A program made the translations under genes and the position numbers. Below, one piece after another: positions 2,119 to 6,635 of a stretch of 64,000 nt of DNA. The notes beneath the pieces were generated by a model. It was not told the DNA's origin. It did not search any database and saw nothing but the letters and a program-made list of their open reading frames with translations. Every line of letters begins with the position of its first letter. The first letter of the stretch is position 1. The DNA comes from Evansella sp. LMS18 (GTDB lineage: Bacteria; Bacillota; Bacilli; Bacillales; Salisediminibacteriaceae): assembly GCF_024362785.1 (NCBI RefSeq), contig NZ_CP093301.1:3658001-3722000 (forward strand), read 5' to 3'.

Positions 2119-3272
2119 GCTGGGACGAAGCCGCCAGACAAGTCCTTGCAGAACTAAGGAAGGAAGGCTATGAAGCATACATCGTCGGCGGGGCTGTCAG
2201 AGATAAAGTTATGGGAAAGCCAGTAAGGGATATTGATATTTGTACGGACGCTGCTGCTGATGCTGTAAAAAATATCTTTCCACGTACTGCAGAGCCGGGA
2301 GCTAACCATGGGACCATTCTTGTATCTGCTGGAGGTAAAGCGATAGAGGTCAGTGAATTCAGAGGGCATCCAGATGGAGGTCTTACGGAAGACTTGTCGG
2401 TTAGGGATTTTACCTGTAATGCAATGGCGATGACAGAGGAAGGAAGAATAATCGATCCTTTTCATGGCCAGGCAGATATCAGGCGGAAATTACTTCAGTC
2501 TGTTGGGGACCCGGCGGAACGTTTCACAGAAGATCCACTTAGGCTCCTAAGGGCTCTTCGCCTGTCACTTCAACTGGGGTTCAAGGTTGATACAGGGACA
2601 AATGAAGCAATGGAGAAGCTGGCGCCCCTCATCAGACAATGTGCAGTGGAACGTATTGCTGCTGAGTTTGAAAAGGCGGCAAAAAACGAACTGGATATTA
2701 ATGGGCTCTCCTTTTTATTATCACATCCTGTCGTTAAAGAACTTCCGTATTTAGGTCATGCCTGCATCAGGCTGTCCGAAAAAGCAGGAGCATATGAGGG
2801 AAACGGCTTCTCCATCCAGACTCCGGTGGAATGGTGGAGCATCATAGCCGGCTTCAGGCCGCCGGACGAAGCCAGGTCCCTCCTTCAGGAATATAAGCGT
2901 TCAGGAAAGATTATTAAATCGGTAATGACTGTACTTGAAGAAACAGCCAGATTGCCTGGGAAACAATGGGATGATCTTACGTTATACCGCCTGGGTCCTG
3001 AGTTAATTCCTGTGGCGGAAAAGCTCCTTGCTCTACGGGAGGTAAGAGAACCTGACATTCCTTGTCTGATCAGCCGGTTCAGGGAGCTTCCTCTGCATTC
3101 AAAAAAAGATTTGATGCTCAATGGAAATTTACTAATGCGCGAGTTTCCTCAAAAGCCAGGGAAATGGATTGGCAAAGCCCTGAATTCAGCGGAAGAAGCA
3201 GTCATCCTTGGCAAAGTGGGAAATGACACGGAGCGGATATTAGAATGGCTTAAAAGGGAGAAATGGGTATGA
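2112..3272 (+). CDS. cca: CCA-adding tRNA nucleotidyltransferase
   Basis: Adds or repairs the 3' CCA end of tRNAs. It is a 386-residue class II nucleotidyltransferase. GGAVRD (26-31) is the flexible nucleotide-binding loop and DID (40-42) provides the metal-binding aspartates. The RDFTCNAMA and RRKLLQSVGDPAERFTEDPLR segments are typical of the head and neck domains. The ATG lies inside the last codons of bshA, and the gene overlaps birA at its 3' end, so translational coupling is likely. Gene order is as in B. subtilis. Confidence 0.95.
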   Translation: MVSWDEAARQVLAELRKEGYEAYIVGGAVRDKVMGKPVRDIDICTDAAADAVKNIFPRTAEPGANHGTILVSAGGKAIEVSEFRGHPDGGLTEDLSVRDFTCNAMAMTEEGRIIDPFHGQADIRRKLLQSVGDPAERFTEDPLRLLRALRLSLQLGFKVDTGTNEAMEKLAPLIRQCAVERIAAEFEKAAKNELDINGLSFLLSHPVVKELPYLGHACIRLSEKAGAYEGNGFSIQTPVEWWSIIAGFRPPDEARSLLQEYKRSGKIIKSVMTVLEETARLPGKQWDDLTLYRLGPELIPVAEKLLALREVREPDIPCLISRFRELPLHSKKDLMLNGNLLMREFPQKPGKWIGKALNSAEEAVILGKVGNDTERILEWLKREKWV

Positions 3273-4237
3273 AGGCAAAAGTATTGCAATTACTAAGGGA
3301 CCATTCAGAAGAACATTTATCTGGTGAAAAAATAAGCGAAATGCTCGGCTGCAGCAGGACCATGGTCTGGAAATATATTGATGCTCTCAGAAAAGAAGGT
3401 TATAAAATTTCGGCTGTACCGAATAAAGGATATCGTATTGCTAATGAGGGCGATCCGTTAAGCGAGCATGAAATTGTTTCCCGAATAAAAGATAATTCCC
3501 TGTTTCACAAAATTGTTTATTATGATTCCCTGGAGTCTACCCAGACCGCAGCTAACAAACTGGTGAGTGAAGGAGCTGACGAAGGGACTGTGGTTATTGC
3601 AGACGAACAGACAGGTGGACGGGGAAGACTCGGAAGAAAATGGGAATCTGCGAAAAACTCAGGTATCTGGATGAGTCTCATACTGCGCCCTGCCATCAGT
3701 ATGCGCCAGGCTCCACAGCTTACTTTAATTACAGCCGTTGCTGCTGTAAGAGCTGTGGAAGCAGTGACAAATGCGGAAGTACATATAAAATGGCCTAATG
3801 ACATATTGATGAATGGGAGAAAATTAGCTGGCATTCTGACAGAAATGCAGGCTGATCCTGACAGGGTGAAATCTGTAATCATTGGAATTGGCCTGAATGT
3901 TAACCAGACAGGATTTGAAGGGGAACTCAGCCAGATCGCCACTTCCCTTGCTGCGGAAACCGGCGGGACATACAGCAGGTCTGCTTTGATAGCAGTGCTG
4001 CTGAAAGAATTTGAATGGATTTATGAGCTGTACTTGTCGAAAGGTTTTTCGGTGATAAAGCCTATGTGGGAAGCTCATGCTTCCACAATAGGGCGCAGGA
4101 TTACCGCTTCGAACCTGCAGGGGGAGATCACCGGTGTGGCTGAAGGTATCGATGAAGATGGTGTTTTACTTCTGAGGGATGACGCCGGGGAACTGAGAAA
4201 GATCTACTCTGCAGATATAAGCTTCGCAAAAAGTTAA
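3269..4237 (+). CDS. birA: Biotin protein ligase / biotin operon repressor BirA
   Basis: Makes biotinyl-AMP, biotinylates acetyl-CoA carboxylase carrier protein and represses biotin genes. An N-terminal winged helix (about residues 15-55) precedes the ligase domain. GGRGRLGRKW (near 116-125) is the adenylate-binding loop and KWPND follows near 174. An ATG at 3263 is also in frame, but GGGAG at 3256-3260 is only two bases from it and eight from the ATG at 3269, so 3269 was chosen (322 residues). It overlaps cca. Confidence 0.93.
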   Translation: MKAKVLQLLRDHSEEHLSGEKISEMLGCSRTMVWKYIDALRKEGYKISAVPNKGYRIANEGDPLSEHEIVSRIKDNSLFHKIVYYDSLESTQTAANKLVSEGADEGTVVIADEQTGGRGRLGRKWESAKNSGIWMSLILRPAISMRQAPQLTLITAVAAVRAVEAVTNAEVHIKWPNDILMNGRKLAGILTEMQADPDRVKSVIIGIGLNVNQTGFEGELSQIATSLAAETGGTYSRSALIAVLLKEFEWIYELYLSKGFSVIKPMWEAHASTIGRRITASNLQGEITGVAEGIDEDGVLLLRDDAGELRKIYSADISFAKS

Positions 4238-4264
4238 CATAGTTTTATAAAGATTTGTTATACT
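4234..4264 (+). promoter_or_regulatory. Candidate promoter for the panB leader
   Basis: An extended -10 element TGTTATACT ends at 4264. A TTAACA-like -35 lies at 4234-4239 with a long 19-base spacer and overlaps the birA stop codon. Transcription from here would begin around 4271, giving a leader of about 260 nt before panB. This is a consensus match only. Confidence 0.5.
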
Positions 4265-4328
4265 CGAGTTGGGCGGTATCCTATGGAACTGTACCTGTTA
4301 TCTCATGTTTTATAAAAAATTATTTCTG

Positions 4329-4443
4329 CCTTGATCCGCAGTCCGGACTGGGACAGAGGGTGTGACGTGATAAAGGGAGAAGTATGCCCTTTATCAAGGT
4401 TTGGAGTGTGTTCACCTTCTTCCTGCTGGAAGAAGGTTTTTTT
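4329..4443 (+). promoter_or_regulatory. panB leader: terminator/antiterminator attenuator
   Basis: A perfect intrinsic terminator lies about 90 bases before panB: CCTTCTTCC (4415-4423), loop TGCT, GGAAGAAGG (4428-4436), then T7 (4437-4443). GGGAGAAG (4375-4382) can pair with CTTCTTCC (4416-4423) over 8 bp with one G-U, which would destroy the terminator. GGG of that antiterminator strand is also the end of a 10-bp hairpin, TGATAAAGGG (4368-4377) with CCCTTTATCA (4387-4396). CCTTGAT (4329-4335) competes for ATCAAGG (4393-4399). The arrangement is that of a riboswitch or attenuator. The described pan RNA motif precedes panB genes in Firmicutes; membership is possible but could not be tested here. 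Confidence 0.65.
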
Positions 4444-4533
4444 GCTGTGATTAGTGGTTTACGATCTTCAGCTCAAAGCACATTTACCAACATATTTCCC
4501 TTTTTCTCAGGCAAATCAGAAAGGAGAATGAGG

Positions 4534-5367
4534 ATGAAATCTACAGCTGATTTTAAGAAAATGAAAATGAATGGTGAGAAAATTTCGATGCTTACTGCTT
4601 ACGATGCCCCAGGTGCAAAGCTGGCGGAAGAAGCTGGAATTGACACGCTGCTTGTGGGGGATTCTGTAGGAATGGTGGTGCTGGGTTACGAGTCAACGAT
4701 CCCAGTAACGGTCCAGGATATGGTTCACCATACGAAAGCCGTAAAAAGAGGTGCCGGGAGCACATTCATAGTTAGTGATCTGCCTTTTCTTTCATACCAT
4801 GCTTCAGAACAGGAGGCTTTCGCAGCAGCCAGGGTGCTCCTTCAGGAAGGCGGAGCACATGCTGTAAAGATGGAGGGCGGTGGAGCCGTCCTGGAAACAG
4901 CAGAAAAACTGACAGCCGCAGGTGTTCCGGTCGTTGCCCATTTAGGGCTTACACCTCAATCTGTAGGCGTACTTGGGGGTTACAGAGTGCAGGGGAAAGA
5001 GAGCAGTGAAGCGGAAAAACTTATTGCCGATGCTGAAAAAGCAGAAAGAGCGGGAGTCAGTATGCTTGTGCTCGAATGTGTTCCTGAAGCACTTGGAGAA
5101 AAAATCAGCAGCCTGTTGTCTATTCCGGTTATTGGAATTGGCGCAGGAAGATTCACAGACGGACAAGTACTCGTTTATCACGATTTAGTCGGCTATACGC
5201 AAGGCCATGTTCCTAAATTTGTTAAACGATATACAAATATATCCTCATCAGTGAAGGAAGCTTTAACAGCTTATCATAACGATGTGAAGAACGGGACGTT
5301 CCCGGAAGAAGAACACGTTTTCCAGGCGATGAAAGACACTGAACAAAGGCTTTATGGAGGAAAATAA
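4534..5367 (+). CDS. panB: 3-methyl-2-oxobutanoate hydroxymethyltransferase PanB
   Basis: Transfers a hydroxymethyl group from methylene-THF to ketoisovalerate, giving ketopantoate, the first step of pantothenate synthesis. The 277-residue TIM-barrel protein carries [18 protein letters not shown], the [12 protein letters not shown] active-site region and [14 protein letters not shown] near the end. The frame opens far upstream through the terminator region. The start chosen is the ATG at 4534, seven bases after AAGGAG, because the upstream part is the regulatory leader. The panC start codon overlaps the last base of the stop codon. Confidence 0.95.
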
Positions 5368-6218
5368 TGATTGTAATAACCACTGTAAAAGATATGCAGG
5401 ACTGGACAGGAACAATTAAAAGAGGCGGAAAAACAATTGGATTTGTACCGACAATGGGTTTTCTCCATGAAGGGCATCTTTCTCTTGCAGCGCAGGCAGG
5501 AGAGGAAAATGACCATACAGTCATGAGCATTTTTGTTAACCCGCTGCAATTCGGCGAAGGAGAGGACTTTGAGGAATATCCGAGGGACCTAGAGCGTGAT
5601 AAAGAGCTTGCAAGGCAGAACGGTGTTGATGTCCTGTTCGTTCCTCAAGTGAGAGAAATGTATCCTCGTATAATGACTTCCTCTCTCACCGTAAAAAAAG
5701 GAGCGGATGTTTTATGCGGCAAGTCAAGGCCAGGTCATTTTGACGGAGTGGCCACGGTAGTTATGAAATTATTCAGCATTGTGTCGCCTGACCGGGCATA
5801 CTTTGGGCTGAAGGACGCGCAGCAAGTCGCAGTAATTGAAAATCTTGTAAAAGACTTCCATCTAAAAACTGACATTGTCAGAGGCAGGACCGTGAGAGAA
5901 GAGGACGGACTGGCAAAAAGCTCCCGTAATGTAAACCTTACCGGCGAGGAGAGGTCGGAAGCTCCGGAAATATACAAAGTGCTCAGGGAAACAAAGGAGA
6001 TTATCCTTAAAGATTCCCGAAAAGATACTGCTTATTATGAGAAGTTCTTACAGGAAACTTTAAACAGAAGAATAAGCGGCACGGTGGATTATGCAGAGAT
6101 AAGAACTTTTCCCGATCTTGAAAAAACAGATGAAATAAACGGAACAGTAATCATTGCTGCTGCAGTTAAATATTCGAAGGTTCGTTTGATTGATAACATT
6201 CTTTTCAGTACCGAGTGA
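5367..6218 (+). CDS. panC: Pantothenate synthetase PanC
   Basis: Condenses pantoate with beta-alanine through a pantoyl-adenylate. The 283-residue protein has the nucleotidyltransferase motif HEGH (34-37, in PTMGFLHEGHLSL) and the KMSKS-like segment GLAKSSRN. The CGKSRPGHFDGVATVVMKLF region is characteristic of the family. Its ATG overlaps the stop codon of panB by one base, so translation is coupled within panBCD. Confidence 0.95.
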   Translation: MIVITTVKDMQDWTGTIKRGGKTIGFVPTMGFLHEGHLSLAAQAGEENDHTVMSIFVNPLQFGEGEDFEEYPRDLERDKELARQNGVDVLFVPQVREMYPRIMTSSLTVKKGADVLCGKSRPGHFDGVATVVMKLFSIVSPDRAYFGLKDAQQVAVIENLVKDFHLKTDIVRGRTVREEDGLAKSSRNVNLTGEERSEAPEIYKVLRETKEIILKDSRKDTAYYEKFLQETLNRRISGTVDYAEIRTFPDLEKTDEINGTVIIAAAVKYSKVRLIDNILFSTE

Positions 6219-6251: not shown

Positions 6252-6635
6252 ATGTTCAGAGAAATGATGAGCGGAAAACTACACCGCGCTACGGTTACAG
6301 AAGCAAATCTAAATTATGTGGGAAGCATTACAATTGATGAGGATTTAATGGAATCCGTTGGAGTACTTGCAAATGAAAAAGTACAGGTGGTCAATAATAA
6401 TAATGGAGCAAGACTGGAAACATATGTCATTCCCGGGTCCAGAGGTTCCAGAACAATCTGCCTGAACGGAGCGGCTGCCCGTCTCGTCCAGCCAGGTGAT
6501 ACAGTAATCATTATTTCTTATAAATGGGTAAAAGAAGAAGAATGCTTTTCTCATCAGCCGAAAGTCGCTATTTTGAATGAAAAAAATGAAATCATTGAGA
6601 TGATGCATACGGAACCAGCAGCTACAGTCCGGTAA
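6252..6635 (+). CDS. panD: Aspartate 1-decarboxylase PanD
   Basis: Makes beta-alanine from aspartate for pantothenate synthesis. The 127-residue protein is a pyruvoyl enzyme. The self-processing site is visible as G24-S25 in NYVGSITID, where cleavage forms the pyruvoyl group on the new alpha chain. The start has GGGGAGAA upstream. It is the last gene of panBCD; the following TPR gene is separated by a hairpin-rich gap. Confidence 0.95.

Follow-up and report, generated by a model that had tools for sequence, protein, structure and literature searches.

The stretch of DNA analysed here (the window: 64,000 nt of Evansella sp. LMS18, contig NZ_CP093301.1, positions 3,658,001–3,722,000; all positions below are window coordinates) carries genes in the order birA, leader, panB, panC and panD (Table 1). 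The identity of panB is supported by a PF02548 match at the same place in the genome, and the other three names are those that we take to apply from sequence and operon order. The leader is a member of a known orphan RNA family, the pan motif, as it gives a full-length match to RF01749 (4270–4360, model positions 1–92 of 92) of 62.8 bits against a gathering threshold of 36.2. RF01749 was the single Rfam family above threshold across the 64-kb window, and nowhere else in the genome did it match at E 0.001 or better. A first-pass annotation, reading helices and a terminator in the sequence, had described an attenuator with mutually exclusive helices in the panB leader and had raised the possibility that it was the described pan motif; the attenuator is borne out and the covariance-model search settles the second point. 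Hairpin 1 of the motif had been overlooked because the annotated stretch began at 4329, inside hairpin 2, and the annotation also did not recognize 4329–4335 as part of the 5′ arm of hairpin 2, nor a stronger rival of the terminator that is described below.

Table 1. Features of the panB leader and flanking genes (window coordinates).
Feature	Position	Strand	Remarks
birA	3263–4237		precedes pan leader
Putative promoter	4234–4264	+	TTAACA 4234–4239, 19-nt spacer, extended −10 TGTTATACT 4256–4264
Pan hairpin 1 (P1)	4270–4296	+	bulged A4278 and A4293; RF01749 alignment
Pan hairpin 2 (P2)	4326–4356	+	bulged A4334 and A4353; U4332 and U4349 unpaired; RF01749 alignment
Proposed antiterminator, upstream strand	4350–4362	+	P2 3′ arm plus tail (4350–4353, 4355–4362)
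10-bp hairpin	4368–4396	+	4368–4377 with 4387–4396, perfect
Antiterminator of the first-pass annotation	4375–4423	+	4375–4382 with 4416–4423; real pairing, lineage-specific
Proposed antiterminator, downstream strand	4413–4424	+	terminator 5′ arm, CCTTC core
Intrinsic terminator	4414–4443	+	4414–4423 with 4428–4437, 10 bp, plus T tract
Possible hairpin over panB ribosome site	4501–4528	+	4501–4507 with 4522–4528, 7 bp, two G–U
panB (ketopantoate hydroxymethyltransferase)	4534–5367	+	ORF; PF02548 match
panC	5367–6218	+	ORF; served as BLAST reference
panD	6252–6635	+	ORF

The model alignment leaves two A's bulged in each of two tandem stems, joined in the window by a linker of 30 nt, and these stems, like the panB–panC–panD genes downstream, are shared with the family as described by Weinberg et al. 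(2010) in the passage of PMC2864571 devoted to it. The element itself shows no difference from that description, so far as the passage goes, and the passage gives no expression platform. The leader is thus an ordinary, good family member and what is added here is a family-wide antiterminator together with its sign, although the novelty of this antiterminator within the family is not certain. A literature search on the pan motif, covering main texts mostly from outside subscription journals, brought up no paper whose entry gives an effector or mechanism, and the passages of PMC3766115 consulted contain neither panB nor pantothenate. At E 0.001 or better RF01749 was found in 9/9 genomes of the genus (8 over threshold), 34/35 of the family (32 over threshold), at least 240/299 of the order (236 over threshold) and at least 152/398 of the phylum (139 over threshold). 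The 35th family genome (G016) gave 49.2 bits when the region upstream of panB was scanned alone. Searching 40 of the negative genomes again brought two above threshold and gave weak matches (up to E 1) in a further 14; such weak matches lie within about 1.2 kb upstream of panB in G425, G388, G396, G399, G350, G386 and G354, so that the counts of ‘absent’ genomes in the order and phylum are upper bounds.

A strict scan of the leader for promoters gave no match, because it limits the spacer to 16–18 nt and the spacer here is 19 nt. A −10-like box ends 0–16 nt 5′ of the pan element at 151 of 172 pan loci compared with 89 of 688 control windows further upstream. Since the extended −10 of the window lies right before 4270 and this placement recurs across pan loci, transcription is predicted to start at about 4270–4272, i.e. 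at the 5′ end of the pan element.

The terminator that the first-pass annotation had described as a 9-bp stem followed by T7 is present at 4414–4437 (this is the stem length if the last A–T pair is counted as part of the tract). It is the only terminator-like site within 4150–4600, where shuffled sequences give 0.3, and the leader as a whole (4270–4446) folds better than 200/200 shuffles (z = −3.05). The 5′ arm of this terminator is complementary to the 3′ arm and tail of pan hairpin 2: 4350–4353 and 4355–4362 can pair with 4413–4424 to give 12 bp around one bulged C (−16.4 kcal/mol), and none of 77 other terminators in the window pairs with the pan tail as well as 4413–4424 does. As G4350–A4353 and A4355–G4356 are both parts of hairpin 2, this tail antiterminator excludes the lower half of hairpin 2 and the terminator alike. 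The 10-bp hairpin at 4368–4396 sits within the loop of the tail antiterminator and fits both states.

The first-pass annotation had drawn a different antiterminator, 4375–4382 with 4416–4423, gated by the 10-bp hairpin and by an extra helix (4329–4335 with 4393–4399), and every one of these helices exists where it was placed: the antiterminator as 8 bp with one G–U, the extra helix as a perfect 7 bp (CCTTGAT/ATCAAGG) and the 10-bp hairpin without a mismatch. Folding energies in the window do not favour the tail-antiterminator model over this one. At a transcript end of 4427 the pan hairpins together with the annotated antiterminator come to −43.0 kcal/mol, compared with −41.8 for the tail antiterminator and −41.6 for the pan hairpins plus the 10-bp hairpin, while the best unconstrained fold of the whole leader (−57.7) is without either consensus pan hairpin and the pan hairpins plus terminator (−52.9) cost 4.8 kcal/mol more. 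Comparison with relatives, by which the annotation had proposed to judge its own model, gave a different result, as neither its antiterminator nor its extra helix held up in the panB leaders of the genus. Over nine genus leaders the annotated antiterminator is paired in 73.6% of cells, a value reached by 131 of 500 shuffles, and the extra helix in 52.5%, not exceeding shuffles, with the complete helix in only 2/9 members; the tail antiterminator is paired in 87.0% and is nearly invariant, so that 208 of 500 shuffles are as high. Covariation within these nine leaders was found for none of the three. The best window over the annotated antiterminator gives −13.2 kcal/mol in the window species and in its sister G004, compared with −16.4 for the tail pairing of the window, and is strong in these two only; in the remaining seven leaders the best pairing between spacer and terminator ranges from −4.2 to −9.2 and the tail pairing from −11.7 to −14.2. 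The MAFFT alignment of the genus leaders is poor over 4368–4396 and the leaders were folded singly for that region; in the family most leaders with a long gap have hairpins of differing sequence at the same place. The 10-bp hairpin is real but not a working part that is kept; it is one of many unrelated spacer hairpins and most likely represents a variable spacer within the loop of the antiterminator. That 4375–4382 provides the working antiterminator appears improbable to us.

Pairing between tail and terminator arm was followed across a comparison set of 172 pan loci from 104 genera, picked by score and spread, with the first listed locus taken where one per genus was used. Terminators scoring at least 18 and lying within 130 nt were called at 149/172 loci, 90/109 in the order and 59/63 outside, a rule that also passes three loci of genus g2 (L026, L027 and L031) that look like ribosome-site hairpins or coding sequence, the first of these representing g2 in the genus counts. 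The 5′ arm of the terminator carries CCTTC at 77/90 order loci, and CCTTC or CCTTTC at 41/59 of the others, compared with CCTTC or CCTTTC in 2/77 other terminators of the window and in 19/329 other terminators of the same loci. This arm is complementary to the 3′ arm of hairpin 2 plus its tail (GACAGAGGG, or GACGGAAGG in many others). With tails grouped by kinship and one locus per genus, which does not wholly remove relatedness, the native tail-by-arm duplex came to −13.53 against −12.91 for swapped pairs in the order (n = 56 genera; 2/5000 permutations as good) and −9.31 against −7.62 in other classes (n = 40 genera; 0/5000 permutations as good). The kinship grouping replaced a first grouping by tail sequence, in which the native pairing was better in 67/95 and 37/54 loci. 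When a 14-nt window was slid along the whole leader the terminator arm paired best with the tail in 52/56 order genera (4.7 expected) and in 19/40 genera of other classes, i.e. under half (3.6 expected); where spacer windows exist, the tail beat every one of them in 54/54 order genera and 19/21 others. In 16/40 genera of other classes the tail duplex is weaker than −8. Pair types change on both sides, for instance from A–U to G–C at tail positions −6 and −3, as judged in the 77/96 genera with a duplex of −8 or better and in a register fitted to the pairing. Sequence comparison thus shows a conserved, co-varying complementarity between the 3′ arm of hairpin 2 plus tail and the terminator 5′ arm, and it is this pairing that is the conserved competitor of the terminator. 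The rule called no terminator in 19/109 order loci, including seven of genus g28 that seem to use another geometry. At four g28 loci (L041, L047, L059 and L094) we observed a long multi-branched terminator with a conserved ACCCCTGTC, which, read by eye, is complementary to the hairpin-2 GACAGAGGG around a bulge; the same switch strand may here be used in a different geometry.

We consider it likely (probability about 0.75) that panBCD transcripts begin with a pan-motif OFF switch, formed by this leader. With hairpin 2 left free, its 3′ arm and tail would pair with the terminator 5′ arm, the terminator would not form and panBCD would be read. An effector that keeps both tandem hairpins closed would tie up the arm, the terminator would form and transcription would stop. 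As the 3′ arm of hairpin 2 doubles as the antiterminator strand, a closed hairpin 2 should mean termination; an antiterminator shared across the family thus predicts a sign that can be tested (closed hairpin 2 = OFF) and points to the bases concerned. Attenuation that is simply constitutive, or complementarity that arose by chance and regulates nothing, fits poorly with the conservation, the permutation results and the breadth of the pan family in order and phylum, and we regard either as highly improbable.

The same strand may act a second time at translation, which we treat as a lead. A helix scoring 5 or more can form over the panB ribosome site in 52/62 order genera and 8/32 genera outside the order, and over the ribosome site of 6/31 other window genes. 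At two g2 loci (L014 and L017) and one of g73 (L120) the start of panB lies 8–10 nt past the pan end and the tail is AGAAGG, so that the tail is there the likely ribosome site. At four other g2 loci (L026, L027, L029 and L031) a CCTTCTT/AAGAAGGAG hairpin lies over the ribosome site and the tail AGAAGG can pair with CCTTCTT. In such relatives, with the tail serving as ribosome site or facing the arm that hides it, a closed hairpin would again mean OFF, at the level of translation, and in the order control could gain a second, translational layer from the possible hairpin at the panB ribosome site. CCTCT occurs just 5′ of panB in 44/62 order genera. In 20/44 it is followed by G (P = 0.0004), a base that would lengthen the pairing with the pan tail; the excess was noticed in the same data before it was tested and is only suggestive. 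The pan tail is nearly constant, and the translational layer stands outside the permutation evidence. In its fullest form the model would give the 3′ arm of hairpin 2 three rival partners, namely its own 5′ arm, the terminator 5′ arm and an anti-ribosome-site arm before panB, with closure by a coenzyme-A-pathway signal shutting both transcription and translation of genes for pantothenate synthesis, uptake and phosphorylation; we propose this tentatively, at rather less than even odds. If true, the three-partner strand would be the RNA-level CoA feedback that is otherwise missing in bacteria with CoA-insensitive pantothenate kinases.

The genes that follow pan elements bear on the signal. Among the 172 loci the first ORF matching PanB, PanC, PanD or BirA of the window was panB in 148, panC in 17, panD in one and BirA-like in one, with none in five. 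Another ORF often precedes panC at the panC-first loci; before panC at L074, L135, L136 and L155 it encodes a DUF2520 Rossmann protein, and our guess is that these are possible ketopantoate reductases standing in for PanE. PanS/SBF-kind transporters take this place ahead of panC at L141 and L159 (the latter below the PanS model cut-off), and other pan copies stand before an OPT transporter and type II pantothenate kinase (L137 and L139), before BioY/ECF components and type III pantothenate kinase (L146 and L151) and before an ECF component (L343). A pantothenate-sensing repressor would shut off the kinase just when pantothenate is plentiful, so that a later signal seems more sensible, and the contexts suggest one late in the pathway, e.g. 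coenzyme A. The effector would then arise after the pantothenate kinase step, as coenzyme A or one of its derivatives, and be sensed either by the RNA or by a protein dimer.

Natural variants indicate which parts of the element matter. In a sister species (L008, genome G002) a 252-nt insert lies in the loop of hairpin 1 with both arms kept, at L009 (G008) the linker between the hairpins is 207 nt, and at L064 the linker is 75 nt and the loop of hairpin 2 is 32 nt; linkers at the 68/172 loci that could be parsed are 23–59 nt. All three variants keep the bulged-A stems, and thus the loops are unlikely to be the recognized part. The insert at L008, most of it tandem repeats, is a natural insertion experiment in which 5.6 copies of a 42-nt unit (1242–1475 in the numbering of that locus) fill the apical loop of hairpin 1.

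TRAP and PyrR force termination in other leaders, and by analogy a protein, probably a dimer, may bind the two bulged-A hairpins and force termination here, for which we would give even odds. Some small-molecule RNA classes, guanidine-II being one, are likewise simple tandem hairpins, which weakens the case for a protein. The three variants fit protein binding, as their stems are intact despite altered loops or linkers, and a dimeric protein was proposed on the basis of the tandem simple hairpins in the passage of Weinberg et al. (2010; PMC2864571) on the motif. The alternative is a true riboswitch, with coenzyme A or some other compound from late in the pathway sensed directly by the RNA; we think this unlikely, although the pan copies before pantothenate kinase and transporter genes do point beyond pantothenate. 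According to one review (the part of PMC12570885 on these enzymes) type II and III pantothenate kinases are without feedback inhibition by CoA, and control of expression would therefore fill a gap. Against a riboswitch, loops and linker are dispensable in natural variants, leaving little for a pocket, and CoA is listed among cofactors without a known riboswitch in the relevant part of a 2022 review (PMC9971707); were CoA the signal, the pan RNA would fill that noted gap.

Two known systems resemble the proposed switch. TRAP binds (G/U)AG repeats, and in the trp leader of Bacillus subtilis the ribosome site also lies under a hairpin, which is what we suspect for the panB leader. This TRAP-controlled leader shares feedback attenuation and two competing structures with the model (PMC3913778; PMC4027176), but the pan element is structured and its proposed binder only putative. 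The PyrR binding site (RF00515) has leader hairpins, antiterminator and terminator in common with it on paper; the window reaches 22.5 bits where the threshold is 54, and panBCD is not a pyrimidine operon, so that the leader is not a member of that family.

Among candidate binding proteins PanB is unlikely, as 5/78 pan-bearing genomes are without a PanB match. A search with PF03630 gave no match in seven genomes, and none in controls either, so that it carries no weight. The type III pantothenate kinase (CoaX) has a PF03309 match in 112/113 pan-bearing genomes tested (split over two frames in G003), and 64/64 pan-bearing rows and 7/8 weak rows retain its PGx[K/R]T loop compared with 15/32 without pan, six family rows being left out of this comparison because their reading frame was missing or wrongly chosen. 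Yet PF03309 matches nothing in one genome (G365, 98% complete) in which a 45-bit pan element precedes an ECF transporter, CoaX is present in 43/49 PanB genomes without an over-threshold pan element, a KTG/RTG loop occurs also in other solved kinases (3djc and 9b78) and low scores occur also in pan-bearing g2 members. A tree-aware test gave only two supported pairs. CoaX is not established as the sensing protein, and that it binds pan RNA seems to us a poor prospect. In 12 pan-less genomes of the order (kinases L214–L225) the PGxKTG loop beside the GADR motif is rebuilt in 10/12, which probably represents few independent events.
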